NCBI RefSeq assembly: GCF_034314085.1
Contig: NZ_JAVIWI010000001.1
Span: 3,782,001 to 3,846,000 of the forward strand
DNA length: 64,000 nt
DNA from: Undibacterium sp. 5I1
GTDB lineage: Bacteria; Pseudomonadota; Gammaproteobacteria; Burkholderiales; Burkholderiaceae_D
Direction: 5' to 3'
Positions 1,777 to 51,625 of this stretch are shown here, piece after piece. The translations under genes and the position numbers were made by a program. A model generated the notes under the pieces. It had not been told where the DNA came from. It ran no database searches and was given only the letters and a program-made list of their open reading frames with translations. Position 1 is the stretch's first letter. Every line of letters begins with the position of its first letter.

Positions 1777-1850
1777 ATATACTAGATAGGTGTATGAGTT
1801 AAAAACCGCCTATTGTCCAATATTTACTTGGACAACTAAAAATACTCCCC
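1777..1850 (+). repeat. Dispersed hairpin element, copy A
   Basis: This is one of seven related intergenic elements. The central hairpin is TTGTCCAA (1813-1820), loop of 7, TTGGACAA (1828-1835). It is followed by CTAAAAATAC and ends at ACTCCCC (1850). The left end TATATACT is weaker than in other copies. It shares the CTATTGTCCA...TGGACAA core with copies F and G in the same orientation. It lies between the PLP enzyme and the glycosyltransferase. Confidence 0.7.
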
Positions 1851-1877
1851 TAATTTTTACATTATTAGCTTTATAAA

Positions 1878-3224
1878 ATGAATAAAATTCTGATCCTCGG
1901 CTATGTCTGGCCGGAACCTCGCTCCTCTGCTGCCGGTAGCCGGATGATGGAGTTGATTACGCTGTTTCGCGCCCAGAATTGGGAGGTGTTATTTGCCTCT
2001 GCTGCCGCTTTATCCGAGCACCGTGCTGATTTGGCGGCGTTGGGCGTGGCGGAAAAAAGTATCGCGCTCAACTGCGCTACTTTTGATAGCTTTATCGCTG
2101 CTTATCAGCCGGATATGGTGTTGTTTGACCGGTTTTTTACGGAAGAACAGTTCGGCTGGCGAGTGGAGGCGATGTGCCCCGATGCTCTGCGCGTATTGGA
2201 CACGACCGATCTGCATAGTCTACGGGATGCCCGGCATCAGTTGTTAAAAGCGACCCAGCATCATTGCCGCAATGAGGCCGAGCGTTACCAGGCTGGTCCT
2301 GTATTAGCCTCGCCGGAGGCATTGCGTGAAGAAATGGGCGGAACGCATGGACATCAAGGAGTCGCCCAGCGCGAAATTGCCGCGATTTATCGCTGCGATC
2401 TGACCTTGATGATCTCCGATGCGGAGGTCAATTTGCTGCAACAGCAGTTTGGCGTTCCCGCCATGTTATTGCATCACTGCGCCTTGATGCTGATGCCCTC
2501 ATCTGCAGCGCATCAGGCACGGCCAACATTTGAACAGCGCGCACATTTTTTCAGTATCGGTAATTTTCGCCATGCGCCCAACTGGGATGCAGTGTTATGG
2601 CTAAAACATGCTTTGTGGCCAAAAATCCGTGCGCAATTACCCGATGCACAATTGCATGTAGCTGGCTCGTACCCGCCACCTAAAGCCACAGCCTTGCATC
2701 ATCCTAAGCAAGGTTTTCATGTGGTGGGCTGGGTGGCGGACGCACATCAGGCCATGTTGCAGGCGCGTGTCTGCCTGGCGCCTTTGCGGTTTGGTGCGGG
2801 GATCAAAGGCAAACTGGCAGATGCGATGGCATGTGGCACGCCAAACGTGACGACCGCGATTGGGTGCGAAGGTATGCAGGGTGATTTGCCTTGGGGCGGC
2901 GCACAGGCAGATGATGCAGTCTCGTTTGCTAATGCCGCCGTGGCGCTGTATCGGGATCCAGCCTTATGGCAGCAGGCGCAAGCAAATGGCGACCGGATTT
3001 TGCAACTACGTTTTGATCGTGACGTCATCGCAGCAGCTTTGTTAGATCGCTTGCAAGAGGCTTATCAGCAGCGGGCAGCGGGACGGCAGGCCAATTTTGT
3101 GGGCAGCATGTTGCGCCATCATCACCATAAAAGTACCCAATACATGTCGCAATGGATTGCTGCAAAAAATCAACTCTCGGCGCTGCAACCGCTTGCGCCT
3201 GATCAGACCGATGGTAAAGGGTGA
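1878..3224 (+). CDS. Glycosyltransferase, GT4-like (family 1)
   Basis: A 448-residue probable GT-B glycosyltransferase. The N-terminal half begins with ILILGYVWPEPRSSAAGSR, the opening beta-strand and Gly-rich loop of the acceptor domain. The C-terminal half carries APLRFGAGIKGKLADAMACG (around residues 300-320), the nucleotide-sugar binding region of GT4 enzymes, followed by TPNVTT. A His-rich tail (MLRHHHHKS) follows the catalytic domain. Sugar donor and acceptor cannot be read from sequence, and there are no neighbouring polysaccharide genes to suggest a pathway. ATG 1878 has no clear ribosome binding site. Repeat copy A lies immediately upstream and may overlap the promoter. Confidence 0.85.
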   Translation: MNKILILGYVWPEPRSSAAGSRMMELITLFRAQNWEVLFASAAALSEHRADLAALGVAEKSIALNCATFDSFIAAYQPDMVLFDRFFTEEQFGWRVEAMCPDALRVLDTTDLHSLRDARHQLLKATQHHCRNEAERYQAGPVLASPEALREEMGGTHGHQGVAQREIAAIYRCDLTLMISDAEVNLLQQQFGVPAMLLHHCALMLMPSSAAHQARPTFEQRAHFFSIGNFRHAPNWDAVLWLKHALWPKIRAQLPDAQLHVAGSYPPPKATALHHPKQGFHVVGWVADAHQAMLQARVCLAPLRFGAGIKGKLADAMACGTPNVTTAIGCEGMQGDLPWGGAQADDAVSFANAAVALYRDPALWQQAQANGDRILQLRFDRDVIAAALLDRLQEAYQQRAAGRQANFVGSMLRHHHHKSTQYMSQWIAAKNQLSALQPLAPDQTDGKG

Positions 3225-3256
3225 TCAGGAATTTTTAGTCGTATGAATGAACGCTG

Positions 3257-3622
3257 TTAATAACGGTATTCATCCACCAGATGTTTATGAAAACTATATT
3301 TAGTCCCACCTTGTAAAACATCAATCAGTTTTTTAGCATTGGCGGCAGAAATAAAAATATCCGCCACGCCATCTTTGACGCGGAATTTAGTCGCCGGACT
3401 AAGGATATTGTTGGGCTTGATCGTCAGGTGACGGATGATTTTGGCTTTCTCATTGCAGATCAAAAAATGACATTCTTTTTTGAAATTCGCCAAAGGAATG
3501 TTTAACCACCAACCTTCATCGGCGACATAGCGCACCACTTGCGAGAACTGGGTATTGCTGTCATTGAGCAGCTTGACTTGTAGCGAGTCATTGGCGATTT
3601 GTATGGCTTCGGATTTGTTCAT
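3257..3622 (-). CDS. Hypothetical protein, 121 aa
   Basis: I do not recognise this protein. It is 121 residues, soluble, without signal peptide or membrane segment, and mixed alpha/beta in composition. The order suggests an N-terminal helix (KSEAIQIANDSLQ), beta strands with a WWLNIPL motif, and a C-terminal helix (AANAKKLIDVLQ) ending in aromatic residues. It is convergent with the glycosyltransferase, whose stop is 32 bp away, and divergent from the DUF4399 gene. Codon use resembles the neighbours, so it looks genuine. ATG 3622 has no strong Shine-Dalgarno. Confidence 0.6.
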   Translation of the reverse strand: MNKSEAIQIANDSLQVKLLNDSNTQFSQVVRYVADEGWWLNIPLANFKKECHFLICNEKAKIIRHLTIKPNNILSPATKFRVKDGVADIFISAANAKKLIDVLQGGTKYSFHKHLVDEYRY

Positions 3623-3875
3623 AATAGCTTGGGCTTAATAGTGTCGTGATTTGCGCAAGGATACACGTTGACTAGCTCAGACTTGGAACAATTATCGGCG
3701 GAGCCAGAAATTTTTTAGAAATGAGCGCAAAATAGTTTGCATGCGAAGCTTGGGATTTGCTTTGATTTAGCTCTGATTCGGTTTTGGTTTTGCCTTAATT
3801 ATTGCAAATGGTCAGTTAGCTGCCGCCAAGCTTTTTCATACCCTTTGTTGTCAAAACATTCAGGAGATTTTTACT

Positions 3876-4313
3876 ATGTCACTATTCAATACATCCTTTT
3901 CATTATCCAAACTGACCTCGCTCCCATTATTGCTGGCCGGTTTGTTATCGTTCTCATCCGCCTATGCTGCTGAGCGGACTTTTTTTGAAGCACCATTAGA
4001 TAACGCCGAAGTTACCTCGCCGTTTAAAGTCAAATTTGGCCTGGAGGGCATGAAAATCGCTCCGTTGGGTGATATGACCGCCAAAACCGGCCATCATCAT
4101 TTGATCATCGACGGCGGCGCTATCCCTGCCGGTACCTCTGTCCCTATGGACGCGACGCATATCCACTATGGCAAGGGTCAGACCGAAACCGAACTGACTC
4201 TGCCTCCAGGCAAACACACCTTGACTCTGCAATTTGGCAACGGTGCACACCAGTCTTATGGACCGGAGATGAGTAAAACCATCACCGTGACCGTATTGCC
4301 TGCGGCTAAATAA
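3876..4313 (+). CDS. DUF4399 domain secreted protein
   Basis: A 145-residue exported protein. A signal peptide with a Leu-rich core ends in AYAAE near residue 31. The mature domain matches DUF4399: an opening FFEAPLDNAEVTSPFKVKFG, a GHHHLIID motif, a second histidine pair (THIHYGKG), then PPGKHTLTLQF and a C-terminal beta strand. The conserved histidines suggest metal or small ligand binding, but the family function is unknown. AGGAG at 3860-3864 precedes ATG 3876 at a good distance. It appears monocistronic. Confidence 0.85.
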   Translation: MSLFNTSFSLSKLTSLPLLLAGLLSFSSAYAAERTFFEAPLDNAEVTSPFKVKFGLEGMKIAPLGDMTAKTGHHHLIIDGGAIPAGTSVPMDATHIHYGKGQTETELTLPPGKHTLTLQFGNGAHQSYGPEMSKTITVTVLPAAK

Positions 4314-4724
4314 CTGAGTTTTAAGCGAGTGTTTAATTAAGTAATAAGTTGAACACGGCGCCGGGTACTAAATCATAAAATACTATGTATGGAAAATATA
4401 CTCCTATAGAGTATATTTTAATTTTCCATGTAAAATAAAGAGGAAAAGCATAATTGAATAGATTTAAAGGGGGAGTATATTTATATTTAGATGTAAGCTG
4501 AGACTGCGCGTTCGATTTTTTGTTAAAACGGAGGCGCATTTTTTAACATCATCACTCATTCGGTTCAGCGTTTAGTCGCGCACCCGGTTCATCGCTCAGT
4601 TCTTCACTATCCGGCTTGAGCAAAACTAGCCAATCGCTGTACTATTAAGTGGTGATGCAGAAAAAGTTTAGTACTCAAATCATTTTGTCCCATATTGTTT
4701 ATCTCCAATTTCTAGGTTGCTAAT
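4314..4724. other. Intergenic region with repeat copy B
   Basis: A 411-bp gap. It holds dispersed element copy B (4393-4480). The remainder is AT-rich and shows no convincing coding frame. The promoter of the downstream sensor gene should lie at its right end. Confidence 0.6.
4393..4480 (-). repeat. Dispersed hairpin element, copy B
   Basis: This copy is inverted relative to copy G. Read on the minus strand, it starts ATATACTCCCCC (4480-4469). The central hairpin is TTTTCC/GGAAAA (plus-strand arms 4422-4427 and 4442-4447), a compensatory variant of TTGTCC/GGACAA. It then has AATTAAAATATAC. The far end has become a perfect 11-bp inverted repeat, AAAATATACTC (4393-4403) and GAGTATATTTT (4409-4419), with a 5-base loop. 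Confidence 0.7.
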
Positions 4725-5909
4725 TTGTATAGTTATGTCGCCATGGATATGTTTGTTCCCAATGAGGATGTTGCTCATTGGGAGCAGCAGCTCCCACTTC
4801 TGTATGGCAGCCAACGCTTGGTCATGTTGGTGGCACTGGCATGGCAATTTCGTCAGCGCGATACTAACTATTCTTTGCAGCTGGCAGATCAGGCCGAGAC
4901 GCTTACCGCCAGATTTTTAAGGGGTGATATCGATAGCCGTGAATTAGCCAGTTTGCGAGCACGCTTGCTGCTGGTGAGAGCCGAGGCAAAATGGCTGATG
5001 GCCAAGTTCACAGAAGCAGAACAACTAGCCGCGGACGCTTTACATGTTTTTTTAGCGATTGATAGCGGCAATGGTAAAAAAGGTTGTTGTGATGCGCATT
5101 ACCTGCTCGCCGCGATTGCGCTGGCGCGCGGCGACAGAGCCTTATTAGCCTCAGAGCTGGAGTTCGCGACGATTGCCGCGTTAGCTGCAAATGATGCCGA
5201 GCGCGAGATTATGGTGCAGTCTTTTCTTGCTAATCAAACTGCTTTAAGCAATTTGACGCTTGCGCAAGAGCGCTGGGGAGAAAGGTTTAGGGCAGATATG
5301 CAGAATGCGAGTCCTAATATTGCTGGCTGTATCTATGATTTTTTTAGCATCACTGCGGCTTTATCCAGCGATTTTGGACAAGCGATTACCTACGGTATTC
5401 AAGCGTATGAACACGCTTTACAAACAGGCCAAATCCGTCGTGCGGTAATTTTAACGACCAATATCGGCGATGCGTTTAATAGCCTGAATGATCATCAAGC
5501 CGCATTACAATGGATGCAAATTGGGCATGATCTTGCAATGCCCACCAACTGGCCGGGCAGCGTTGGTAGTTGCCAAATGCAATTGGCAGAAACCATGCGC
5601 CGTCTGGGGCGTTTAGAAGCAGCTAGGGGATTATTGAACGATACCATCACGATTCTGGCGCCAATGTCAGAGTCGCGCGTGTATATGATGGCGCTACGTT
5701 ACCAGAGTGATTTGTTGCTGGATTTGGGTGATTACCAGCAGGCATTGCAAGGTTTTCGCTTGCTTCAAGAAAAAGCCGATGTCCGTGATCAGTTTGATTT
5801 TAGAATCGGTGCACGGCGTGGCCAAGCGCATGCCTTGTCGATGCTGGGTCAGCCTGCCGATGCGTTGGCGATTGCCGAACAGGCGCTCTTGCTAGCGCGA
5901 CATAGCTAG
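4725..5909 (+). CDS. TPR half of a TPR-GAF-histidine kinase, ended by in-frame TAG
   Basis: A 394-codon frame of helical repeats (for example the segment NIGDAFNSLNDHQAALQWM and the DLGDYQQALQGF repeat near residue 335), typical of a cytosolic TPR sensory module. It ends at TAG 5907-5909. The same frame continues without another stop to 7562 and supplies the rest of the TPR region, a GAF domain and a histidine kinase, so this is the front half of one ancestral gene. TTG 4725 has AGG eight bases upstream; ATG 4743 is an alternative start. If the stop is real, this half is an isolated TPR protein. Confidence 0.75.
   Translation: MYSYVAMDMFVPNEDVAHWEQQLPLLYGSQRLVMLVALAWQFRQRDTNYSLQLADQAETLTARFLRGDIDSRELASLRARLLLVRAEAKWLMAKFTEAEQLAADALHVFLAIDSGNGKKGCCDAHYLLAAIALARGDRALLASELEFATIAALAANDAEREIMVQSFLANQTALSNLTLAQERWGERFRADMQNASPNIAGCIYDFFSITAALSSDFGQAITYGIQAYEHALQTGQIRRAVILTTNIGDAFNSLNDHQAALQWMQIGHDLAMPTNWPGSVGSCQMQLAETMRRLGRLEAARGLLNDTITILAPMSESRVYMMALRYQSDLLLDLGDYQQALQGFRLLQEKADVRDQFDFRIGARRGQAHALSMLGQPADALAIAEQALLLARHS
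5907..5909 (+). other. In-frame amber stop inside the sensor kinase gene
   Basis: The codons CAT AGC TAG GAC AGT TAT are in the frame shared by 4725-5909 and 5910-7562. A single base change (for example from CAG, AAG, TGG or TAT) would restore one frame of 944 sense codons. No frameshift or deletion is visible around it. Confidence 0.85.
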
Positions 5910-5933
5910 GACAGTTATCGCCGGATAGACGTC

Positions 5934-7562
5934 TTGCGGGTGCTGGCGGCGATTCATATGCGGCATCACTTACCGCCACCAGCCGACATGCAAGAGGCTA
6001 GCGCAGCGCTATATTATTTAAAACGTGCATTGGATATTGCCAGCAATATCAATGGCTACACTATTTCTGGCGAACTGCTAGAGGAAGTGGCGGATGCCCA
6101 GGCAGAAGTTGGTAATTATGAGGATGCGTTTGGACTTGGCAGATTAGCCATCGCTGCACGTGAAAAAATTCATAATCAAGAAGCCACTAACCGTGCGACT
6201 GCTATGCAGCTTAGCCATCAGACTGAACGTATGCGAGCCGAAAGCGAGCATCTGCGACAGTTGGCAGACGCAGAAGTAGAACGCGCCAGAGTACTGCAAC
6301 AATCCAGCGTGATCTTGGAGCGTCTGGGTATGGTCGGTCAGGAAATTACCGGCAGCTTAGATGCTAATGCGGTCTTCCAGGCACTGAACCGTCACGTCCA
6401 TGGCTTGCTGCATGTCACTGCGTTTGTGATATACATCATGGACGCAGATCAGCAAAGCATGACGTCCGCCTTTGGTGTAGAAAATGGCGAGCCGATCGCG
6501 CACGACACGGTGTTGATGTCGAGTGAGATTTCTCATTCCGCTCGCTGCGTCAGAGAACGCAGGGAGATTCTTGTAGAGATTTCGCCGGATGAAGAAAATC
6601 CGGGCTTACTCCCCGGCACAGAACCAGTACTGAGTACTCTATTTGCCCCCTTGATGAGTGCTGATAAGGTGCTTGGCGTGATAACCATACAGTCCTCCAG
6701 ACAATATGCGTACGGCGAAAGAGAGCGCATGATTTTTCGCACACTTTGTTCGTATGGGGCGATTGCGCTTGCCAATGCGGATGCGTACCGACGTCTGACG
6801 CAAACGCAAGAGCATTTAGTCGCGCAAGAAAAATTAGCTGCCTTAGGTGCCTTAGTAGCCGGTGTGGCACATGAATTAAATACACCGATTGGTAATTGCC
6901 TGCTAGTCGCCAGCACTTTGCAGGACAACACCACGAATCTGCTTAGCAAGCTCCATCAGCAAAATTTGCGCCGATCCGATCTGATTGCGTTTTGTGAAGA
7001 TGCCAGAACTTCCTCAGAGATTATGATGCGCGGTTTAAGTAGTGCGGCTACTTTGGTCAGCAGCTTTAAACAAGTCGCTGTTGACCGCACCTCAGAGCAA
7101 CGTCGCCCGTTTGAATTACATCAGGTATTACACGACATTATTTCGACCTTAAATATCCGCATTGGACATGCTGGCCACACTATATTGTCAGATATACCTT
7201 TGATGATTCGGATGGATAGTTATCCGGGTTCGCTAGGGCAAGTCATAACTAATTTAATCGAGAATTCTATTTTGCATGGCTTTGATCATGGCAAACCTGG
7301 CACCATGCGCTTGAAGGTATCGCAGCCTGATACTCAGCGTGTGATGATTCATTTCTCTGATGATGGTGTCGGCATTGCGGAAGAGAATTTGAAGAGGATT
7401 TTTGATCCATTTTTTACGACCAAGCTAGGGCAAGGGGGTAGCGGTTTGGGATTAAATATTTGTTACAACATCGTCACCTCGATTTTGCAAGGGCAACTTA
7501 GCGTAAAGAGCAAGCCGGGAGAGGGTTCGACTTTTTCTTTGGATTTACCGCTGGTAGTGTGA
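5934..7562 (+). CDS. GAF-histidine kinase half of the interrupted sensor
   Basis: A 542-codon frame directly continuing the upstream TPR frame. It carries the last TPR helices (1-100), a coiled coil (about 95-130), a GAF domain (about 130-285) and a histidine kinase core. The core has H-box VAHELNTPIGN (phosphoacceptor about His313), N-box NLIENSILHGF, and ATP lid FDPFFTTK followed by GSGLGLNIC. All catalytic motifs look intact. No response regulator is encoded nearby. TTG 5934 or ATG 5958 could start it, but neither has a good Shine-Dalgarno, so expression alone would need reinitiation or readthrough of the TAG 24 bases earlier. It converges on the solute-binding gene. Confidence 0.75.
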   Translation: MRVLAAIHMRHHLPPPADMQEASAALYYLKRALDIASNINGYTISGELLEEVADAQAEVGNYEDAFGLGRLAIAAREKIHNQEATNRATAMQLSHQTERMRAESEHLRQLADAEVERARVLQQSSVILERLGMVGQEITGSLDANAVFQALNRHVHGLLHVTAFVIYIMDADQQSMTSAFGVENGEPIAHDTVLMSSEISHSARCVRERREILVEISPDEENPGLLPGTEPVLSTLFAPLMSADKVLGVITIQSSRQYAYGERERMIFRTLCSYGAIALANADAYRRLTQTQEHLVAQEKLAALGALVAGVAHELNTPIGNCLLVASTLQDNTTNLLSKLHQQNLRRSDLIAFCEDARTSSEIMMRGLSSAATLVSSFKQVAVDRTSEQRRPFELHQVLHDIISTLNIRIGHAGHTILSDIPLMIRMDSYPGSLGQVITNLIENSILHGFDHGKPGTMRLKVSQPDTQRVMIHFSDDGVGIAEENLKRIFDPFFTTKLGQGGSGLGLNICYNIVTSILQGQLSVKSKPGEGSTFSLDLPLVV

Positions 7563-7605
7563 GCCATGCTGAACAATACTGAAAATTGATCTCCCTAAAG
7601 CGAAC

Positions 7606-8379: not shown

Positions 8380-8596
8380 GGCAATGACTCGGCAAAAGTG
8401 ATGATGTAGTTTAGCGTAAGTTGTGTGGGTATTGCGCTAAGCTTATTCCTAAGTGTTGCGCTTTGGCAAAACATATATTTACTCCTGGTTCTATGTCGTC
8501 AGAGCAAAAAAGCAAGAGTCTTCAAGGTCCGCCCAAAACTATTTTGACTATTTTAGTAGTACTACGTAGCCTGAGTGAACTCGCTTCAGCAACGCC

Positions 8597-9937: not shown

Positions 9938-10073
9938 AATAGAACCTGTGACGCCTTTGGGTTGGCAGTGAAATATAAGAGCGATATTTTTCTCAAAAAT
10001 AACAGAATAAGTTTCGTCAAATTATATTTGCACAAATGTAGATATGGTACACTTTAATCGCTGGAGATTTGCA

Positions 10074-10649: not shown

Positions 10650-10729
10650 ACATTATTTACATGCTTAAAAGTTTTGAACCTTACTTTGTTTTAAGTTCTT
10701 CACAGAGCATAATTTTTTAGAAGAAAATT

Positions 10730-10765
10730 ACGATTGAACCATCAATATTTTGATGGTTCAATCGT
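10730..10765. promoter_or_regulatory. 15-bp perfect inverted repeat upstream of DUF3106 gene
   Basis: ACGATTGAACCATCA (10730-10744), loop ATATTT, then TGATGGTTCAATCGT (10751-10765). It lies 80 bp after marR and 48 bp before the DUF3106 start. No T-run follows on the plus strand. It could be a terminator for marR, an operator, or an RNA leader hairpin. Confidence 0.6.
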
Positions 10766-10813
10766 CGATAGTTCGATAGTGATTAACCAATCGGTCTAGT
10801 TCAAGGAGATCCT

Positions 10814-13372: not shown

Positions 13373-13381
13373 ATTAATTGA

Positions 13382-13416: not shown

Positions 13417-13431
13417 ACAATATCAAGCTTG

Positions 13432-14499: not shown

Positions 14500-14574
14500 T
14501 GGTGCGACCGACAGGAATCGAACCTGTATCGCCAGCTTCGGAGGCTAGCATCCTATCCGTTGGAAGACGGTCAC
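14500..14574 (-). tRNA. tRNA-Arg (CCG anticodon)
   Basis: A 75-nt cloverleaf with encoded CCA. The acceptor stem is GTGACCG paired with CGGTCGC (one G-T pair). The anticodon stem CTAGC/GCTGG holds loop CTCCGAA. The T arm is ACAGG-TTCGATT-CCTGT. The D stem TTCC/GGAT has a T-T mismatch at its first pair, where tRNAs normally have G-C, and the variable loop has four bases. It is therefore slightly degenerate but plausibly functional. It lies in AT-rich, repeat-laden DNA and could be an old integration site. Confidence 0.85.
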
Positions 14575-19142: not shown

Positions 19143-19163
19143 TGCGGGATGTAGATATTTTAA

Positions 19164-31760: not shown

Positions 31761-31843
31761 ATATACTCCCACTATGTATATTTAGTTGTCCAAGTGATTG
31801 CTGGTCTATATGGCGATTTTTTGATCAGAGCAGGGAAGTATAT
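31761..31843 (-). repeat. Dispersed hairpin element, copy C
   Basis: Inverted relative to copy G. The plus strand shows ATATACTCCCAC (left), GTATATTTAGTTGTCCAAG in the core and AGGGAAGTATAT at the right end. The second hairpin arm is degraded (TGGTCTA), so this copy seems to be decaying. Confidence 0.6.
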
Positions 31844-32990: not shown

Positions 32991-33150
32991 TTGACATCCT
33001 CCCCGCCCTAAAGGACCGGGATTCCTACGGCGCTGCGCGATGATTTACGAGTCGCTTCGGTGGGTTCCTGCTTCACTGAGCGGCCTGACTGCGCCGTCTC
33101 TCCACAGGCTAAGACGCGATGTCCTCGCGCTAAAACATTGATCGCGCCGA
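32975..33150 (-). ncRNA. Predicted omega-RNA of the TnpB element
   Basis: IS605-type elements produce a guide RNA that spans the 3' end of tnpB and the right end, with the guide taken from flanking DNA. Here the right end includes the hairpin CCCGCCCT/AGGACCGGG and finishes in TCAA at 32991. The guide would be the flank read on the minus strand, beginning TATGCCTTTGTTGCGG (32990 downward). Boundaries are estimated; nothing in the sequence proves transcription. Confidence 0.4.
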
Positions 33151-34249
33151 CCACATCGGCGTGATTTTCGTAACCGCAATCGACGCACAGAAATTTCGCT
33201 TGTGTTTGCCGATTGTCTTTCGATACATGGGCGCAGGCCGGGCACGTCTGGCTTGTATGGTGAGGCGGAACGGCCATTAACATTCCGCCGTGCCACTGCA
33301 CCTTATACGCCAGTTGGCGTCTGAACTCGCCCCAACCCTGATCGAGAATAGAACGGTTCAGGCCAGATTTTTGCGCTACCTTTTTGCCGGGCTGTTCGCT
33401 ATTGCCTTTGGAAGACTTGGACATATTCCGTACCTGCAAATCCTCAATGCATACGAGCGCGTGGTTTTGGCTGATCGTCGTTGTGGTTTTGTGCAGGAAG
33501 TCTTTACGGGCATTGGCGATGCCGGTGTGAATCTGCTGGACTTTGGCTTTCGCCTTCTTCCAGTTGCTACTGAACTTGACCTTGCGGCTCATGCGGCGCT
33601 GGTAGCGCGCAAGGCGTTGCTGATGTTTCTTGAAGCTGTTGAGTGGCGCGATATAGCTCTCATCGCTCATGGTGGCGAACCGGGCAATGCCGACATCGAT
33701 GCCGATAGCGCTTGTTGCCGTGGGCAATGGCTGTTCGACTTCGCGCTGCGTCTGGATCGAGGCGAACCACTTTCCGCCCGACTGGCTTACGGTGGCATTG
33801 CGAACCTCGCCCATCACATCACGGCTGTTGCGGTAACGCAGCCAGCCGAGCTTGGGTAGAAAGATGCGGTCGTTACCCTGATCGAGCTTGATCTGTTTCG
33901 GGTCGGGGTAGCGAAAAGTATCACCGCTACCCTTGCGCTTCAATTTTGGAAAGTCGGCGCGTTTATCGAAGAAATTCTTGTACGCCGTCTCCAAATCCTT
34001 CAGCGCATGTTGCAGCGGGTGACATGGCGCATCCCTCAGCCAAGGCGTGTCAGAACCATTGCGCCACCCGGTCAAGTGCTTCGCCATGGCGACGTAGCCA
34101 ATGAACTTGTTACCTGCTTCGTGGTTCTCTTTTTGCATCGCCAGCGCCTTGTTATAGACGAACCGGCATGACCCAGCGAAGCGGCGCATGTGGCGCTCTT
34201 GCTCGCCATCGGGCATCAGTTCGTATTTGTAGGCTTGTAAGCGTTGCAT
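33008..34249 (-). CDS. tnpB: TnpB RNA-guided nuclease (IS605 OrfB)
   Basis: A 413-residue TnpB, ancestor-type of Cas12. The N-terminal wedge/REC region (YKYELMPDGEQERHM, CRFVYNKAL) is complete. The RuvC catalytic triad is visible: Asp185 in GIDVGIARF, Glu269 in CIEDLQVRNM, Asp365 in NHADVVGAINVL. The zinc ribbon has CPAC (336-339) and CVDCG (355-358). TnpB cuts DNA next to a TAM using the omega-RNA guide and so helps keep the element. It is divergent from tnpA with 24 bp between starts. All catalytic residues are intact, while the partner tnpA is frameshifted. Confidence 0.93.
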   Translation of the reverse strand: MQRLQAYKYELMPDGEQERHMRRFAGSCRFVYNKALAMQKENHEAGNKFIGYVAMAKHLTGWRNGSDTPWLRDAPCHPLQHALKDLETAYKNFFDKRADFPKLKRKGSGDTFRYPDPKQIKLDQGNDRIFLPKLGWLRYRNSRDVMGEVRNATVSQSGGKWFASIQTQREVEQPLPTATSAIGIDVGIARFATMSDESYIAPLNSFKKHQQRLARYQRRMSRKVKFSSNWKKAKAKVQQIHTGIANARKDFLHKTTTTISQNHALVCIEDLQVRNMSKSSKGNSEQPGKKVAQKSGLNRSILDQGWGEFRRQLAYKVQWHGGMLMAVPPHHTSQTCPACAHVSKDNRQTQAKFLCVDCGYENHADVVGAINVLARGHRVLACGETAQSGRSVKQEPTEATRKSSRSAVGIPVL

Positions 34250-34273
34250 AGTTCAATGATAGTTTGGTGTATG

Positions 34274-34686
34274 AGTAATGATAACGATATTCGACACGGA
34301 AGACACTGCGTTTTCCTGATGCATGTACATTTGGTCTTTGTAACGAAATACCGCCGTGAAGTATTCACAAAAGAAATTCTTGACGACCTGCGCCCGATGT
34401 TCGCCAGCGTCTGCACGGACTTTGAAGCGGAACTGGTGGAGTTCGACGGCGAGGATGACCATGTACACCTGCTAGTGAATTACCCGCCCAAGGTTTCCGT
34501 TTCCAATCTGGTCAATAGCTTGAAAGGCGTTTCCAGCCGCATGATTCGAAAGAAGAACTACCCTAGCATCCGCAAGAAGCTATGGGGGGCGCGCTATGGT
34601 CGCCTTCCTACTTTGCCGGTAGCTGCGGCGGCGCACCCATTGCCGTTATCCGGCAGTACATCGAACAGCAGCAGACACCACACTAG
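34274..34686 (+). pseudogene. tnpA: TnpA Y1 transposase, frameshifted
   Basis: The first 105 or so codons encode an IS200/IS605 Y1 transposase with the HUH motif in DDHVHLLVNYPP and the typical VNSLKGVSSR. At a run of six G residues (34584-34589) the frame is lost after KKLW. One more base restores it to ALWSPSYFAGSCGG and AVIRQYIEQQQTPH, ending at TAG 34684-34686. The catalytic tyrosine lies in that second part (RQY). Without frameshift the protein lacks the nucleophile and runs on to 34873. It is either inactive or made by slippage on the G run. Confidence 0.8.
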
Positions 34687-34762
34687 AAGCACCAAACCGG
34701 ACGGCTTAGCCGTCCGCGCTCTTGACCCCGCCCTGAACGGCGAGGTTTGCCGCGCAAACCGA

Positions 34763-36442
34763 TCAAGAAGTGCCTCGCGACGATTTTTTCCCAGTGTATT
34801 TGGGTATATCAACATTACCGATAGAAACGGTTTGTGCGATCTGCCATTCTTCCCACAAACCACTCATCCATAAGCCTATTTGCTCCCGTGTAGCTGTTGC
34901 GCTGGATATTGACGGCGACAGCCGGCCTTTGGCCATCACATGCATGCGATCGCATAAGGCAAACAATTCATCCAGCTCTTCGGAAATTACCAGCACGGCG
35001 CAACCAGCTTCTTTCAGCAAGCGTATCTCTTGATGAATTTGTGCCGCCGCACCAATATCTACGCCCCAAGTCGGTTGCGCTATGATGAAGACATCTGGCT
35101 GCAGCATGATCTCGCGCCCGACAATAAATTTTTGCAGATTGCCGCCAGACAGACTTTTTACCAATGCCGCCGGTCCGCCCGCTTTTACGCGGAAGCGATC
35201 AATGATTTGTGTTGCTGCCTCTACCACTTGTTTAAACCGGATCATGCCGTTGACGACTAAAGGCGCTCTCTGGTGCGACAACAACATATTTTCGGACAAA
35301 CTCAGCTCTGGCACGGCACCACGTCCCAAACGTTCTTCCGGCACCAGACTCTGACCTTGCGCACGTCTGGCCTTGGGACCGAGATGACCGACCGGATTAT
35401 TTTTCAGCAAAATCATATCAGGCTTGGCGCGTCTGTCTTCGCCTGACAAGGCGGCGAGCAATTCTTGCTGACCATTGCCGGATATGCCTGCAATACCAAC
35501 GATTTCACCACCGAATAAATCCAGATGAATGTTATCCAGTGCTGTGGCAAACGCATGGGCTTTTGGTAGCGATAATTGCTGAATTTTTAAACGTATATTA
35601 CCGAGGGCATGGGGGGTAATCGCGCGTGGTTGTTCTGGTTCGGCACCGATCATCAGACGCGATAAACTGGCTGCGCTTTCTTGACGTGGGTCGCAACGTC
35701 CGGTGACTTTGCCGCCGCGCATGACAGTCGCGCTATGGCAAAGCTCGCGGATCTCATCCAGCTTGTGGCTAATATACAAAATGCTGCAACCATCCTTCGC
35801 GATTTTGCGCAAGGTAATAAACAATGTCTGTACTGCTTGCGGCGTTAACACAGAGGTTGGTTCGTCCAGGATCAGCAGTTGTGGATGCGTTAGCAGGGCA
35901 CGCACAATTTCTACCCTTTGCCTTTCGCCTACCGACAGTGTATGAACATGCCGCTGCGGCTCTAGCTCCAGACCGTAGTTGTCGCCAGTTTTGCGTATTT
36001 GCTCTGCCAGATCTGCCATGTTGGTTTTAGCGGCCAAGCCAAGCGCAATATTCTCGGTGACGGTCAACGTATCAAATAAAGAGAAATGCTGAAACACCAT
36101 CGCAATACCTAACCGACGGGCCTCTTGCGGATTATTGATGCGGACTTCCTGACCATTCCAGCGCACCGAGCCTGCATCAGGTCTGACGGCACCAAAGATG
36201 ATTTTCATCAGCGTCGATTTGCCGGCACCGTTTTCACCCAACACAGCATGAATCTCACCTGCCGTTACGCTCAAGCTAACATCGTCGTTGGCGATTACCG
36301 TGGGATAGCGCTTGCAAATGCCAGACAGTTCTAATCTGAGTGCCGATGAGGTCGGCTCAACCGGACGTGCGAAAGCCAGCGCAATATCAGTAGGCGTAGC
36401 TGTAACAACAGCGGGAGGCATGGGGGATGACATCTGCTTCAA
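34763..36442 (-). CDS. Sugar/nucleoside-type ABC transporter ATPase (two NBDs)
   Basis: A 559-residue fused ATPase of the BMP/nucleoside or simple-sugar importer class. NBD1 has Walker A GENGAGKS (about residue 73), signature LSVGERQRVEIVRAL and Walker B LLILDEPTSVLTP. NBD2 has the usual degenerate P-loop GISGNGQQE and signature LSGGNLQKFIVG. Such ATPases normally precede two permease genes; none follow. The stop codon TGA lies within TTGAT, the insertion pentamer of the adjoining IS605 element. The leading 25 residues before the first beta strand are low complexity; ATG 36430 or 36418 are alternative starts. Confidence 0.87.
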   Translation of the reverse strand: MKQMSSPMPPAVVTATPTDIALAFARPVEPTSSALRLELSGICKRYPTVIANDDVSLSVTAGEIHAVLGENGAGKSTLMKIIFGAVRPDAGSVRWNGQEVRINNPQEARRLGIAMVFQHFSLFDTLTVTENIALGLAAKTNMADLAEQIRKTGDNYGLELEPQRHVHTLSVGERQRVEIVRALLTHPQLLILDEPTSVLTPQAVQTLFITLRKIAKDGCSILYISHKLDEIRELCHSATVMRGGKVTGRCDPRQESAASLSRLMIGAEPEQPRAITPHALGNIRLKIQQLSLPKAHAFATALDNIHLDLFGGEIVGIAGISGNGQQELLAALSGEDRRAKPDMILLKNNPVGHLGPKARRAQGQSLVPEERLGRGAVPELSLSENMLLSHQRAPLVVNGMIRFKQVVEAATQIIDRFRVKAGGPAALVKSLSGGNLQKFIVGREIMLQPDVFIIAQPTWGVDIGAAAQIHQEIRLLKEAGCAVLVISEELDELFALCDRMHVMAKGRLSPSISSATATREQIGLWMSGLWEEWQIAQTVSIGNVDIPKYTGKKSSRGTS

Positions 36443-36472: not shown

Positions 36473-36556
36473 ATATACTCCCCCATTATTTATGATGGAT
36501 ATCGTCTATTACCCATTAATATTATGGGTAGTTAAAATATACTGGTTATGAGTATA
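36473..36556 (+). repeat. Dispersed hairpin element, copy D
   Basis: The left end is ATATACTCCCCC (36473-36484). The central hairpin TACCCAT (36510-36516), seven-base loop, ATGGGTA (36524-36530) carries two compensatory pair changes relative to TTGTCCA/TGGACAA. Then GTTAAAATATAC and right end TGAGTATA. It lies between glycerate kinase and the ABC ATPase, likely near the latter's promoter. Confidence 0.72.
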
Positions 36557-39321: not shown

Positions 39322-39405
39322 AATACTCATCCCCAGTAATTTTTAATCGTCCAATTATTATATGGGCAATAAGGCATATTTATACTTCAAGTTAGGGGAG
39401 TATAT
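39322..39405 (+). repeat. Dispersed hairpin element, copy E
   Basis: Left end AATACTCATCCCC, core CGTCCA/TGGGCA (39348-39353 and 39363-39368) pairing with one G-T pair, right end AGGGGAGTATAT (39394-39405). It lies between the serine hydrolase and the SNF2 helicase, which are convergent. Confidence 0.65.
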
Positions 39406-43597: not shown

Positions 43598-43599
43598 TT

Positions 43600-46839: not shown

Positions 46840-46858
46840 ACAGTAAGTTGTGTGCTTG

Positions 46859-46899
46859 GTTGTTGGTTCAAACACTCGGTGAGTGAGTAAACCAACAAC
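46859..46899. terminator. Nested hairpin after the RND operon
   Basis: GTTGTTGGTT (46859-46868) pairs perfectly with AACCAACAAC (46890-46899), enclosing a second stem CACTC/GAGTG. It lies between the convergent pump and isomerase genes. No T-run follows, so terminator function is inferred. Confidence 0.6.
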
Positions 46900-46968
46900 T
46901 GTTTCTTACTTACCGCTTCCTGTTTTATTGATTTATTGTTTCTTCAAGGGCTTATCAAATCAGATTAA

Positions 46969-47823
46969 TTATTTGACTTGATAAGCCGCATCCGCAAACG
47001 AGCTGATTGGCAATAGATCGGCATATTCGGTAGGGCGTCCTTGTTGCTTCGCCATAAATGCTTCCATCAAATTACTGTTTTGCCAGATACCGGATTGCAG
47101 CCAGCCCATTTGTTGCAAGGCGTCATGCGTAGAATGGTCGCGGGCGTAGTGAATCGCTTGCTTGCTGCCCCAGATCGCTACCGGTGGTTTCTCCGCGATT
47201 TCAGCCGCCATTTGCAGCGCGGCGGCGAGCATGTTTTCTTGCGTATCAAATAGTTCATTGACCAGGCCAACCGCTAAGGCGCGTTGTGCTGGCAAGCGGC
47301 GACCCGTGTAAGCCATTTCGTGGACGATGCCTTCGGGTATCAATTTTGGAAGACGTTGCAAGGTGCCAAGGTCGGCGGTCATCCCGATATTAATTTCTTG
47401 GATGCAGAAAAAAGCATCTGTTGTTGCCAGACGGATGTCACTGGCGCACACCATGTCCACGCCGCCGCCGATACAACCACCCTGAATAGCGCTGATCACG
47501 GGCATACGCAAAGTTTCAATCAGATTAAACGCCTGATGCATGTCTTGCAGTGCCAGCACAATATTGGCACGACCGACTGCCGTCAAATCATCCATCGTCA
47601 TGCCGCCGCTAGAAAAAACATCCAGCGACATGCCCGCCGTAAAGTGCTTTCCGGTAGAAGAAATGACCAGGGCTCTGGCGCTGGCTTCGCGTTGCAGGGT
47701 TTGCAGTATCTCGGTTAGTTCACGCCAAAACACCGGTTGCATGGTGTTTATACTGGCAGGGCGGTTCAGTTGCAGATGAGCGACTTTGTTGCTGATAGAC
47801 AGGGAAAAACATTGGTAAGTCAT
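46969..47823 (-). CDS. Delta(3,5)-delta(2,4)-dienoyl-CoA isomerase-like crotonase
   Basis: A 284-residue crotonase-fold enzyme. The oxyanion-hole segments are HFTAGMSLDVF and IQGGCIGGGVDM. Asp123, Glu143 and Asp151 (in GGGVDM, CIQEINIG and TADLG) keep the 20- and 28-residue spacing of the catalytic Asp/Glu/Asp of rat dienoyl-CoA isomerase ECH1, and LGTLQRLPKLI follows as in that enzyme. This favours an isomerase of unsaturated fatty acid beta-oxidation over a plain enoyl-CoA hydratase. It lies 30 bp after a TetR gene on the same strand, probably co-transcribed and auto-regulated. Confidence 0.85.
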   Translation of the reverse strand: MTYQCFSLSISNKVAHLQLNRPASINTMQPVFWRELTEILQTLQREASARALVISSTGKHFTAGMSLDVFSSGGMTMDDLTAVGRANIVLALQDMHQAFNLIETLRMPVISAIQGGCIGGGVDMVCASDIRLATTDAFFCIQEINIGMTADLGTLQRLPKLIPEGIVHEMAYTGRRLPAQRALAVGLVNELFDTQENMLAAALQMAAEIAEKPPVAIWGSKQAIHYARDHSTHDALQQMGWLQSGIWQNSNLMEAFMAKQQGRPTEYADLLPISSFADAAYQVK

Positions 47824-47853
47824 GGTGTCTCCGATTTGGATTTTTAAGAATTC

Positions 47854-48507
47854 TTATGCTTCAGGCTGTTTAAGCGATTGCAATACGGCATTCACGGCTG
47901 CGCGATACAGTTCATCCGAATGCTCTTTTTTTAAATAATACCCTTTGAGTTCCAGGCTGATCACGCCATGCATTGCCGCCCACAAAAGACGCGCGGCATT
48001 GGTCGATTTAGTCGTCGTGGGCAGACTGCCTTCTTGTATGCAGTGGTCAAACTCATTGATTAGCGGCGTAAAGGATTCCCAGGCGGCGACCCGCGATTCT
48101 AGCGGCGGTACAAAACCGGCAATCGCATCGCCAAACATCACCATGTAATAGCTAGGATTACGGCGGGCGTATTGATGATAATTGGTGGCATACATCCACA
48201 ACCGATCGAGACCATGCGTCTTTTCGGCAAGCGGCAGACTCGCTTCATAAGTGGCAAAGTCTTGCTTCAGTCGACTAAAACCTTCCAGATACAAGGCATT
48301 GGACAAGCCATCTTTGCCACCGAATAAAGAATACAACAAGGTTGTCGAACAATTGACCGCCTCAGCTACCTTGCGCACCGTGAGCGCGGCCGCGCCTTCT
48401 TCCACCAGCAAGCGGCTGGCGGCATCCAGCATGCCTTGGCGCAAAGTGCTGCGTAGCTCTTCCTGCCCCTGCTTAAAATCAATCACTTTGGGTTTTTGTG
48501 TTGGCAT
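47854..48507 (-). CDS. TetR/AcrR family regulator
   Basis: A 217-residue regulator. The HTH region reads MLDAASRLLVEEGAAALTV, then RKVAEAVNCSTTLLYSLFGGKDGLSNAL (about residues 45-72). The C-terminal domain is of the TetR_C_33 type judging by ATNYHQYARRNPSYYMVMFGDA. The start is set at ATG 48507 (MPTQKPKV); the frame is open to 48645, but that extension is hydrophobic and would lie in the promoter shared with the divergent nitronate monooxygenase. It likely controls the isomerase gene and perhaps the divergent gene. Confidence 0.85.
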   Translation of the reverse strand: MPTQKPKVIDFKQGQEELRSTLRQGMLDAASRLLVEEGAAALTVRKVAEAVNCSTTLLYSLFGGKDGLSNALYLEGFSRLKQDFATYEASLPLAEKTHGLDRLWMYATNYHQYARRNPSYYMVMFGDAIAGFVPPLESRVAAWESFTPLINEFDHCIQEGSLPTTTKSTNAARLLWAAMHGVISLELKGYYLKKEHSDELYRAAVNAVLQSLKQPEA

Positions 48508-48665
48508 AATGACCCGCAAATTTTTTATGAAAAACAACGTTTTTTCTGATAACATCATATCAGCACCATTAATAAATACCAAAATAATTTCTAAGATCAG
48601 TACAAACATTAGCAAAAACGTCAGCACCAAGTTCAGACCAGACAAACCACAATAGAGACAAGATT

Positions 48666-49640
48666 ATGACCACTTCTCATCTACCTAAAGCCTTACAAAA
48701 TCTCTCGCTGCCAGTGATAGGTTCACCGCTCTTTATCGCCAGCGGTCCTAAGCTGGTCGCCGCCCAATGCAAGGCTGGTATCGTCGGCTCTTTCCCCGCT
48801 CTCAACGCTCGTCCGGCAGAATTACTAGACACTTGGCTGACCGATCTGAAAGCAGAACTGGCCGACTATCAAGCCGCCAATCCGAGCGCTAAAGTCGGGC
48901 CGATTGCGGTTAATCAGATCGTGCATCAATCCAATGATCGCCTCGCCCATGACGTAGAAATGTGCGTCAAGCATCAAATTCCTATCATCATTTCATCCCT
49001 GCGCGCACCACCAAAAGAGATGCTGGACGCGATCCATAGCTACGGCGGTATCGTCATGCATGACGTGATTTCTATCCGTCACTCAGAAAAAGCGTTGGAA
49101 GCGGGTGTCGATGGTTTGATACTGGTCGCTGCTGGTGCTGGTGGCCATGCCGGTGGTTTGTCGCCATTTGCGCTGGTCGGCGAAGTGCGCAAGTTCTTCA
49201 AAGGTCCGATTGCGTTGTCCGGTTCGATTGCCTCCGGCGATGCGATTTTGGCGTCGCAAGCTATGGGAGCAGATTTTGCCTACATCGGCTCACGCTGGCT
49301 GGCAACGCAAGAATCGAATGTGGATGATGGCTATCGCAATGCAATTATTGAATCCTCCGCAGCCGATATCGTCTACACCAACCTGTTCACCGGTGTGCAC
49401 GGCAACTACCTGAAAAAATCCATCGTCGCTGCTGGCCTCGACCCGGACAATTTGCCAGTCGCCGATAAAACCGCCATGAACTTTGGTTCTGGCAGCAGCA
49501 GTAAAGCCAAAGCCTGGCGCGACATCTGGGGCGCAGGCCAAGGTGTAGGTCTGATGGAGGATGCGCCTAGCGTGGCGGAAGTCGTTGCACGTTTTAAGCT
49601 GGAATACGATGCTGCGAAAGCGCGTTTGATGGCGCTGTAA
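48666..49640 (+). CDS. Nitronate monooxygenase (2-nitropropane dioxygenase family)
   Basis: A 324-residue FMN-dependent TIM-barrel enzyme that oxidises alkyl nitronates, often a detoxification role. SLPVIGSPLFIASGPKLVAA opens the barrel; VDGLILVAAGAGGHAGG carries the catalytic His and the FMN phosphate region, followed by GPIALSGSIASGDAILASQAMGADFAYIGSRWL. It is full length. It is divergent from a TetR gene, with 158 bp between starts, and an intrinsic terminator follows. Pairing with a dienoyl-CoA isomerase and TetR suggests a shared fatty-acid-related regulon; inference only. Confidence 0.9.
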   Translation: MTTSHLPKALQNLSLPVIGSPLFIASGPKLVAAQCKAGIVGSFPALNARPAELLDTWLTDLKAELADYQAANPSAKVGPIAVNQIVHQSNDRLAHDVEMCVKHQIPIIISSLRAPPKEMLDAIHSYGGIVMHDVISIRHSEKALEAGVDGLILVAAGAGGHAGGLSPFALVGEVRKFFKGPIALSGSIASGDAILASQAMGADFAYIGSRWLATQESNVDDGYRNAIIESSAADIVYTNLFTGVHGNYLKKSIVAAGLDPDNLPVADKTAMNFGSGSSSKAKAWRDIWGAGQGVGLMEDAPSVAEVVARFKLEYDAAKARLMAL

Positions 49641-49692
49641 TTGATTGCCAGTGTGTCCTGGACAAACTTGCAGGCGCGCTCAAAAATCACTC

Positions 49693-49720
49693 TAAAAAGC
49701 ATCCACACCGGATGCTTTTT
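49693..49720 (+). terminator. Rho-independent terminator after nitronate monooxygenase
   Basis: AAAAAGCATCC, loop ACACC, GGATGCTTTTTT: an 11-bp stem with T-run at 49715-49720. Confidence 0.92.
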
Positions 49721-49750
49721 TATTTTGCTGGTAGCGCATTACTTCCTCAT

Positions 49751-49843
49751 GTCATTCCGGCATGGTTTTAGCCGGAATCCCGTGTCTTCATCTTGATAAC
49801 GTTTGCTGTCGCTAGTTTCCGGCTTAAAACACGCCGGAATGAC
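49751..49843. repeat. Inverted repeat with GTCATTCCGGC ends
   Basis: GTCATTCCGGC (49751-49761) and GCCGGAATGAC (49833-49843) are perfect inverse copies, and the adjoining GTTTTAGCCGGAA / TTCCGGCTTAAAAC extends the similarity. Sequences of this type are common dispersed repeats in proteobacteria. Confidence 0.7.
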
Positions 49844-49910
49844 GCTTCAGTTTTTTTGAACATCAATGTGATGATGATCAATATTTAACCTGAATATAGC
49901 CATCCGTTCA

Positions 49911-49994
49911 ATATACTCCCCTTCTATTTTATAAAAAGTGCTCTATTGTCCAGTAATTATATGGACAACCTATATATACTAATTACCAGTATAT
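49911..49994 (+). repeat. Dispersed hairpin element, copy F
   Basis: Left end ATATACTCCCC (49911-49921), core CTCTATTGTCCA, hairpin arms TTGTCCA (49946-49952) and TGGACAA (49962-49968), then CTATATATAC and a weakened right end CCAGTATAT. Same orientation as copy G, on the other side of the carbonic anhydrase gene. Confidence 0.75.
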
Positions 49995-50138
49995 TTTTAT
50001 CATAACGTACACGGATCAAACTGCCGGCAGTTGCAAGGCTAAAATTGCCTTCATCGTAGCGATCTCTTGCCGCCATTCAAGTTTTTTCCACAATCTGCCG
50101 TAACCTCGTCATACCCCGCCAACTACTTCCCAATTCTT

Positions 50139-51260
50139 ATGATGCGTCGCCTGATTGCTGTGCTGATCCCCGTATTGCTGTGCGCCCAGGTGCAGGCGAA
50201 TGACGAGCCGACTCCGTCTAAACCGATTAAACCAGCTGCCGCAAAAGAGGAGGCTTCGGTAAAAGACGAAGCAAAACCCGCTGCGAAAGAAAAAGACAGC
50301 AAAGACAAAGAGCCGAAAGAAACCAAAGAAAGTAAAGCTGCCGCCGCAGCGCGTGCCAAAGAAGCTCTAGCCGCCGATGAGCTGGCCGCCAAAATTGCCG
50401 ACAAGCTCGCTATCATCCGCAAAGAAAAAGAAGAAACGTCCCGTAGCAATCCTAAGGCAATGGCTAGAAGTTACGCCTATGCGCCACCGGTCAGAAAACC
50501 AGTAAGCGCTGACACGTCAAAAGAAAAAATCATGGACAGCCGTGGCATGACCATGAGTCCCAACGGCAGCATGGCATCCAGCAAACCGGTGCAATGGAGT
50601 TATGAAGGAGAGGGCGGCCCTTTAAACTGGGGCAAGATCAGCCCTGCTAACGCCAAGTGCGATAGCGGCGAGCGGCAATCGCCGATTGATATCCGTGACG
50701 GTATCCGGGTGGACCTGGCTCCCATCAGTTTTGACTATAAACCGGCTGGTTTCAGAGTCACGGACACAGGTCATACGATTCAGGTCAACCTTGGTCCCGG
50801 CAATTACATTACGGTGAATGGCCGTAGTTTTGAGCTGGTGCAATTCCATTTCCATAAGCCAGCGGAAGAGCGCGTCAATGGCAAAGGTTTTGAGATGGTC
50901 GTGCATCTGGTACACAAAGATGCTGATGGCAAACTCGCGATCCTCGCAGTGCTGATCGAGCGCGGCAAACCGCATAGTCTGGTGCAATCGGTCTGGAATA
51001 ATTTGCCGCTGGAAAAAAATGACTCGATGCAAGGACCTGCTGCAATGGATTTAAACGAGATACTGCCAGCCAAGCGCGACTATTACACTTTTATGGGGTC
51101 TCTGACCGAACCACCTTGTACCGAAGGCGTATTGTGGCTGGTCATGAAAGAGCCGATAGAAATATCCGCAGAGCAATTAGCGATCTTCAACCGTTTGTAT
51201 CCGATGAACGCCAGACCGATACAAAAAACCTCGGGTCGTCTGATCAAAGAATCCAACTAA
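50139..51260 (+). CDS. Alpha carbonic anhydrase with charged linker
   Basis: A 373-residue exported enzyme that hydrates CO2. A signal peptide (RRLIAVLIPVLLCAQVQAND) is followed by about 120 residues of Lys/Glu/Ala-rich low complexity, probably an extended or coiled linker. The catalytic domain starts at WSYEGEGGPLNWG, has QSPIDI, and zinc ligands FHFHKPAEE (two His) and VVHLVHKD (third His), then SLTEPPCTEGVLW, the conserved substrate pocket. ATG 50139 or 50142 begins the signal peptide; the frame is open to 50067 but no start signal supports it. It is flanked by repeat copies F and G. Confidence 0.9.
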   Translation: MMRRLIAVLIPVLLCAQVQANDEPTPSKPIKPAAAKEEASVKDEAKPAAKEKDSKDKEPKETKESKAAAAARAKEALAADELAAKIADKLAIIRKEKEETSRSNPKAMARSYAYAPPVRKPVSADTSKEKIMDSRGMTMSPNGSMASSKPVQWSYEGEGGPLNWGKISPANAKCDSGERQSPIDIRDGIRVDLAPISFDYKPAGFRVTDTGHTIQVNLGPGNYITVNGRSFELVQFHFHKPAEERVNGKGFEMVVHLVHKDADGKLAILAVLIERGKPHSLVQSVWNNLPLEKNDSMQGPAAMDLNEILPAKRDYYTFMGSLTEPPCTEGVLWLVMKEPIEISAEQLAIFNRLYPMNARPIQKTSGRLIKESN

Positions 51261-51625
51261 CTTAAAGAGTTGTTTGGGCCATGGTTCAGACCCTGGCTCA
51301 GACGTTAATTTATACAGATCAATCAATAAATTAAAATATACTCCCCTGTATTTTTCATAAAAATGCTCTAATGTCTAATTAATACATGGACAATTAAATA
51401 TACATATGGGGAGTATAAATAAAATCATAGATGGCAGGCCGCCTATTACCATGCTCATTTCACCGGAATGAACACCTTAATATCGATGAGTCGTCATCAA
51501 GCCGGGTCAAAAAATTAGTCATAGTTGCTTACGGACGCAACATTCGCTTACAAGCTTTTCGTCAACGCAAATCGCCTCCAAAGAGTTAATTCCCTACACG
51601 GACAATTAATTAAAAGGAGCCCATC
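51261..51625. other. Intergenic region with repeat copy G
   Basis: A 365-bp gap holding dispersed element copy G (51336-51417), the best preserved of the family. The remainder has no recognised gene; the promoter of the small lipoprotein should lie near 51550-51600. Confidence 0.55.
51336..51417 (+). repeat. Dispersed hairpin element, copy G (reference copy)
   Basis: The ends form a 10-bp perfect terminal inverted repeat: TATACTCCCC (51337-51346) and GGGGAGTATA (51408-51417). The core has CTCTAATGTCTA (to 51377) and TGGACA (51387-51392), pairing with one G-T pair, then ATTAAATATAC. Total length 82 bp. Confidence 0.8.

Follow-up and report, generated by a model that had tools for sequence, protein, structure and literature searches.

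An intergenic repeat family of Undibacterium with species-specific centres and a RAYT/TIRYT-type protein as candidate partner

The stretch of Undibacterium sp. 5I1 DNA analysed here (64,000 nucleotides, positions 3,782,001 to 3,846,000 of contig NZ_JAVIWI010000001.1, assembly GCF_034314085.1; hereafter the window) contains seven copies of a short intergenic element, which belongs to a large repeat family of its host genome (4.88 Mb in 2 contigs; labelled G000 below) and of many other Undibacterium genomes. We have computed the members of this family, its species-specific variants (dialects) and its limits, and we find that some copies keep their position between species, that constraint acts on individual copies, and that the presence of the element is associated with the active-site state of a Y1/HUH protein of the RAYT/TIRYT type. 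On balance we favour, with moderate confidence, the reading that the elements are non-autonomous REP-like copies which have this single-copy, vertically inherited protein as candidate partner and are still constrained by its binding.

A first-pass annotation of the window had proposed seven related elements, and all of them proved to be real, being recovered with an nhmmer profile at E<1e-3 that gave no other match in the window:

1777..1850, plus strand: degenerate copy (24.8 bits, profile columns 21-69; the match covers 1799-1846 only)
4397..4479, minus strand: full-length copy with a diverged centre (27.6 bits, columns 1-81)
31762..31842, minus strand: full-length copy (45.1 bits)
36474..36556, plus strand: full-length copy with the centre TTACCCA/TGGGTAG (37.3 bits)
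39322..39404, minus strand: full-length copy (44.6 bits)
49912..49993, plus strand: full-length copy, near consensus (56.3 bits)
51337..51417, plus strand: full-length copy, near consensus, with the ends TATACTCCCC/GGGGAGTATA (56.7 bits)

Four copies lie on the plus strand and three on the minus strand, not five and two as first tallied. The shared ends that had been described hold up, with 10 occurrences of TATACTCCCC (at most one mismatch) in the window where 1.5 would be expected. In the degenerate copy the central GTCCA...TGGAC box and the AAATAC box are retained, and the left CCCC and the right end are degenerate or gone. Genome-wide, the pattern TATACTCCCCN45-70AGTATA has 198 directed matches, among which near-palindromic copies count twice, and the reversed-pattern control has none. 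An nhmmer profile built from copies gave 107 matches (E<1e-3) in the 1.264 Mb of genome examined, 87 of them full-length, which on scaling by length would amount to some 400 chromosomal copies, of which about 325 would be full-length. An integron attC array was ruled out, as the copies are dispersed rather than clustered. No own-dialect element was found in viral contigs, a distant blastn search with one window gene against E. coli genomes returned nothing, and a literature search of open-licence papers, including those on Undibacterium repeats, found no published account of this element.

Alignment of the 87 full-length own copies (the 20 partial matches among the 107 being omitted) reveals conserved boxes that keep a fixed spacing and are separated by columns of nearly random sequence. 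On the left these are TATACTCCC(C) in columns 1-10, a T run in 16-19, AAA in 23-25 and CCA in 39-41; on the right they are TGGAC in 51-55, AAATATAC in 61-68 and (G)AGTATA in 77-82. Two dyads can be recognised, GTCCA-N9-TGGAC and TATAC-N9-GTATA, each with a spacer of nine bases. Both ends are built on AATATACTCC, the right one inverted; within the right half the AATATAC box occurs a third time, and the central box between the shared ends is species-specific. The core measures about 82 bp, and because conservation continues for 6-7 bp into the A/T-rich flanks outside each end (with A at position -1 in 83 of 87 copies), the unit is nearer 95 bp, with AATATAC present three times. Copies are diverse in sequence (mean pairwise identity 0.69) and constant in length, 87 of the 107 matches being full-length. 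Target-site duplications of 2-10 bp showed no clear excess in the 87 copies, the maximum lying about 2 standard deviations above shuffled flanks (at length 3).

In none of the 107 copies does the overlap with a predicted gene exceed 25 bp, with a simple gene finder that called 70-77% of the sequence coding; the exclusively intergenic location first described for the window thus applies. The gaps that contain the copies are tandem in 61 cases, convergent in 35 and divergent in 11, where insertable intergenic length would lead one to expect 58%, 18% and 24%, respectively; copies are enriched between convergent genes and depleted between divergent ones. The BIME/REP sequences of E. coli, unrelated in sequence, are similarly found between convergent and behind tandem genes and contain dyad motifs. 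In tandem gaps the element has the same strand as the genes 26 times and the opposite strand 35 times, which is random and argues against two options of the first-pass annotation, an mRNA-end stabiliser and a small structured RNA, if strand-specific; an RNA terminator or stabiliser was rejected on this test.

Evidence for constraint comes from orthologous copies. The own-dialect pattern matches 101 stretches of a species-representative collection; all 80 that were listed belong to one Undibacterium metagenome-assembled genome (MAG), and the other 21 were treated as coming from the same MAG. Most stretches aligned between MAG and own genome are 90-97% identical, and 22 of 22 comparable elements are common to both, at MAG loci that had been picked for holding a copy. 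Divergence over these shared elements is 8.7%, versus 16.2% in 60-bp flanks (gaps counted). In the 20 of the 22 pairs that are full-length, and with the 21 columns used in choosing MAG copies set apart, conserved columns changed at 11 of 400 sites (2.75%), middling columns at 44 of 391 and variable columns at 60 of 416 (14.4%; p=1.3e-9 between the extremes). For reference, third codon positions changed at 13.2%, first positions at 2.5% and intergenic sites overall at 7.5%, a value lowered by uncalled genes. With conserved columns this slow and variable columns close to the synonymous rate, the conserved columns are constrained at orthologous copies, and natural selection seems, as judged from these comparisons, to keep the elements copy by copy.

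A search with a sequence-only profile detected the element in 20 of 36 genomes of the genus (own included) and in none of 24 genomes of other genera; strict filters and at most 77 candidates scored per genome make the counts per genome lower bounds. Ends and length are common across the genus, and the centres differ by species: TTGTCCA/TGGACAA in the own genome, TTGCGCA/TGCGCAA in G014 and G015, TCCGCA/TGCGGA in G011, GTCAGCG/AAAGGGC in G020, and TCTCAGCA or TGTCCTTA/AAAGGGC in G043 and G049. The reversed-pattern control had 1 match (in G013) in one of the dialect searches and none in the others. At one site, the nag locus, an element is located behind a NagB-II-like gene (so labelled from an NCBIfam match below cut-off) and before the gene for a sugar-transport binding protein. 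Of 30 inspected genomes, 17 have it there in one and the same orientation, two more (G064, G066) have it in degenerate form and 11 lack it, several of these with another downstream gene; in G043 it is present as well, as judged by coordinates. Its centre is that of the species' own dialect in G000, G011, G015, G017 and G045, and in each of seven large-genome species a single copy was detected, always at this locus. In the copies of these seven species (L216, L218, L219, L220, L291, L292 and L293, around 1501-1580) the GGGGAG end coincides with a possible ribosome-binding site of the next gene.

Comparison of orthologous gaps between species found an element in 16 of 18 comparisons (14 distinct), never with a change of orientation; the target locus had been chosen for holding a copy in 12 of these comparisons, and unbiased sequence alone gave 4 of 6. 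In the reverse direction, the gaps of own copies were inspected in G011, G014 and G015, where 0 of 9 usable gaps contained the element and one had degenerate ends (five more comparison lines, all for one own copy in a repeated gene family, were set aside). Taken together, the shared gaps and the reverse test show that an older shared set exists, in addition to copies of the own lineage that the other species lack, and the idea that all copies are positionally ancient had to be corrected on the latter evidence. Two copies (G014:C1:769569 and 2447756; G015:C1:4690317 and 1792800) are, as far as printed, identical between G014 and G015, the other copies of which differ.

The candidate partner is encoded outside the window. 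Several Y1 genes are present in the genome, one of which is RAYT-like (232 amino acids, G000:C1:4129313-4130008; PF01797 with 40.7 bits; NCBIfam REP_Tyr_transpos with 60 bits, below its cut-off of 80). It is single-copy in G000 and matched in 42 of 43 genomes of the genus, two of these matches being weak or partial; the best matches mostly show 57-75% identity, and many genomes also encode distant paralogues of up to about 43%. The gene appears to be single-copy and vertically inherited, as judged informally from RAYT trees. The own protein has HUH at residues 60-62 and Ser120 in the place where the class signature Y---NP (PMC6006769) has its tyrosine. Ser120 aligns, if weakly (E=0.39), with the tyrosine of DYIYINP in TnpAREP (PDB 4er8), and Tyr-to-Phe mutants of related TnpAREP enzymes are described as inactive (PMC8266576). 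Both motifs are intact in 109 of the best 120 of 3411 database homologues. The catalytic tyrosine is replaced by Ser or Ala in the lineage of G000, G051 and G011, where HUH is kept. Among 22 element-bearing genomes HUH is intact in all 22 and the tyrosine in 19, and among 18 genomes without intact elements HUH, tyrosine or both are lost in 16, the exceptions being G003 and G005. This count of 40 proteins leaves out G024 and G064, which are incomplete genomes with weak or partial RAYT matches, and G047, which has no RAYT match; absence of the element was judged with the sequence-only (R1) profile for 15 of the 18 genomes and only with an exact end pattern for G060, G061 and G062.

Inactive RAYTs remain under purifying selection. 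The genes of G000 and G051 differ by 9 synonymous and 0 nonsynonymous changes, and among other inactive RAYTs the ratio of nonsynonymous to synonymous rates (dN/dS) is 0.04-0.12 for the four pairs that could be measured, a fifth pair being saturated, with 0.05-0.06 in active pairs. One clade has HUH changed to RxH and the tyrosine to Met or Leu (G009, G010, G023, G044, G061, G016, G008, G048, G046, G002, G060), and the low dN/dS in two measurable pairs makes a non-catalytic role of its proteins likely. In G000 and G051 an element follows the RAYT gene at a distance of 130 bp, and in G020 at about 80 bp. Across the order, 82 of 150 genomes encode homologues, and several of these proteins have a GRPRK tail at the C terminus. 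Among 29 loci in other genera (39-62% identity) 11 have flanking inverted repeats, 9 of them with GGTC[AT]GA, which resembles the TIRYT motif GGGGWSAS (PMC3733652), and 5 with the exact GGGGTCAG. Another genome of the order (G111:C1) has six RAYT/TIRYT matches (at 919506, 932774, 3096556, 401825 and others), at least three of nearly equal score, as if the gene were still mobile there. The window itself contains an IS200/IS605-type insertion at 33008-34873, with a TnpB-like open reading frame (33008-34249, minus strand; labelled by eye) and a Y1 open reading frame (34244-34873, plus strand), the Y1 match of the latter falling into two overlapping parts, of which one contains a stop; a copy of this arrangement lies at G000:C1:1408184-1408548.

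Several observations weigh against the proposed pairing. A diverged dialect could escape the absence calls, and G007, G008 and G044 are only 65-73% complete; G066, counted as having no intact elements, keeps a degenerate nag-locus copy, and G047 (93% complete), where RAYT had no match, carries one element. An advance prediction, that ten unseen RAYTs from element-free genomes would lack the tyrosine, proved right for 7 of them; G066 had lost HUH instead, and G003 and G005 were intact. As 7 of the 10 proteins belong to known lineages and, of the three new ones, only G066 fits, the prediction provides little independent evidence. On the RAYT tree the inactive proteins fall into about four lineages; intact elements are missing from three of these and numerous in one (G000, G051, G011). 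With so few independent events Fisher's p=2.8e-6 overstates the association. The element stands beside RAYT in 3 of 30 genus loci (two of them in near-identical genomes) and never on both sides; repeats like those flanking RAYT in other genera were seen at 0 of 30 Undibacterium loci, where the only inverted matches are four short ones (score 11) that differ in sequence. Finally, the GTAG/GTGG foot box of known REPs occurs neither in the consensus nor in the invariant columns of the 87 copies.

In the mechanism we propose, a RAYT with intact HUH histidines and tyrosine would cut and copy element DNA as single strands, which would leave no target duplication; the copies would settle mostly downstream of genes and persist long, and protein and central box would change together between species, giving rise to dialects. 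Copying by an active protein would explain the missing duplications, the unshared copies and the association with catalytic residues. In the own lineage, where the tyrosine is now Ser, copying should have stopped, and that protein and copies are still conserved would most simply mean that the protein still binds the copies and thereby helps the host. Such a binding role would explain the constraint on copies and protein after tyrosine loss. Binding and mobilisation of the element, its co-evolution with the RAYT protein and a benefit to the host are what the sequence comparisons suggest. A more far-reaching version, which we put forward tentatively, is that a cutting-dead, domesticated transposase has turned into a host DNA-binding protein, and that hundreds of former elements are its selected genome-wide sites, re-tuned together into dialects while ends and some positions were kept. 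Of the options in the first-pass annotation, we favour a REP-like element that a Y1-type transposase moves, given the lack of a clear target duplication and of a DDE_3 gene (the one DDE family searched) and a presence that tracks the Y1/HUH residues.

It is improbable that the element is instead a structured RNA or an mRNA 3'-end element with a hairpin under selection, although in four sets the folding of real copies is more stable than that of column-shuffled ones (z -4.2 own, -6.9 G020, -4.7 in the set of G014 and G015, -2.9 G011), a signal that base composition shared within a copy could give. Copies also lie mostly downstream of genes, the stem is 82% paired across the 87 copies, the whole structure is 86.2% paired versus 85.2% (standard deviation 0.4) with shuffled partners, a value reached by 7 of 500 shuffles, and the five-pair run of the stem (columns 34-38 with 58-54) has a z of 3.05. 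This run ranks fifth of all antiparallel runs, and the best parallel control run, at z 3.26, exceeds it. Five-pair runs above z 3 in this helix-wise test numbered 6 antiparallel versus 2 parallel in the own set, 0 versus 8 in G020, 2 versus 0 in the set of G014 and G015 and 0 versus 0 in G011. The covariation score of the 87 copies was equalled by 28 of 500 shuffles, mutual information placed no stem pair in the top 30 and no pair above the largest shuffled value, and RNAalifold predicted 0 pairs on own copies. No covariation was detected in 58 of the 64 listed copies of G020, whose centre GTCAGCG/AAAGGGC does not form a good palindrome. The random strand in tandem gaps and an Rfam scan of the window that found no family at the element sites also speak against RNA (the sole match was a tRNA gene at 14503-14574, minus strand). 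What stands of the covarying hairpin first proposed is that the hairpin is common and that its arms change jointly between some species (TTGTCCA/TGGACAA, TTGCGCA/TGCGCAA, TCCGCA/TGCGGA), covariation within the own genome being at most weak; selection on structure, which had been read from arm covariation, has at most a weak signal behind it in the own copies and none in those of G020, and the folding energies lean towards it.

A classical family of miniature inverted-repeat transposable elements (MITEs), moved by a DDE transposase and now decaying, is very improbable. IS630-type MITEs (for example Correia/NEMIS) are short and intergenic and have inverted ends starting with TA, and the element resembles them in its inverted ends with a TA-like edge, its intergenic location and its many copies. 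Unlike these MITEs, it shows no clear target-site duplication, its copies are not decaying, and the genome has no IS630-type DDE_3 (PF13358; other DDE families were not searched). An active MITE was rejected on the sharing of 22 of 22 comparable copies with the MAG, at loci chosen for a copy, and a decayed one on the five-fold slower change of conserved than of variable columns at orthologous copies; the constant length is a further point against a MITE. Rather unlikely, but more plausible, is that the copies are binding sites of a global DNA-binding protein, a regulator or chromosome organiser whose specificity drifts by species, with RAYT a bystander that follows the species tree. Fixed spacing with two dyads and nine-base spacers, purifying selection on each copy, same-site and same-orientation copies with different centres across species, and a single detected copy at one place in seven large-genome species would all fit. 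Yet no candidate factor emerged, no systematic search for one having been made; the scarcity in divergent gaps (11 of 107 versus about 24%) and excess in convergent ones (35 of 107 versus 18%) are unlike promoter operators; and the association with the RAYT active site would then reflect chance or a shared phylogeny, as is possible with so few independent events.

The favoured reading, REP-like copies with a RAYT/TIRYT-type partner, places the element near two known systems. TIRYT transposases go with TIR repeat families of the motif GGGGWSAS (Di Nocera et al. 2013, PMC3733652), and RAYT group 1 equals TnpAREP subclass 2.1 (group names after PMC6006769), for which automatic and manual searches are reported in that paper to have given no REP-like partner. 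As with TIRYT and RAYT group 1, our candidate is a Y1/HUH protein with homologues widespread in the order, some of whose genes adjoin GGGG(T)CAGA inverted repeats, and the Undibacterium element ends contain GGGGAG. Read as GGGGAGTA, these ends agree with the TIRYT motif at 6 of 8 positions and so do not conform to it. Unlike TIRYT, the Undibacterium gene has no flanking repeats (0 of 30 loci) and is single-copy in its close form, and the element, approximately 82 bp long, has a centre that varies by species and is under selection copy by copy, with some positions conserved. REPIN/RAYT systems (PMC8049555) resemble our case in that their non-autonomous intergenic copies number tens to hundreds, their transposase is single-copy and vertical, they persist long and their repeat sequences are species-specific; the Undibacterium element differs from them in lacking the GT[AG]G foot, in its ends and length, in the great diversity of its copies (0.69), and in that constraint is here measured at orthologous copies.

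The genus offers a candidate partner together with a natural experiment, as active, inactive and element-free lineages exist side by side, and a transposase gene without its tyrosine has been kept without amino-acid change between two genomes (G000 and G051). Purifying selection at orthologous copies is not predicted by a pure replication-selection model, and Undibacterium makes it testable whether bacterial repeats endure as slow parasites or are retained because each copy is of use to its host.

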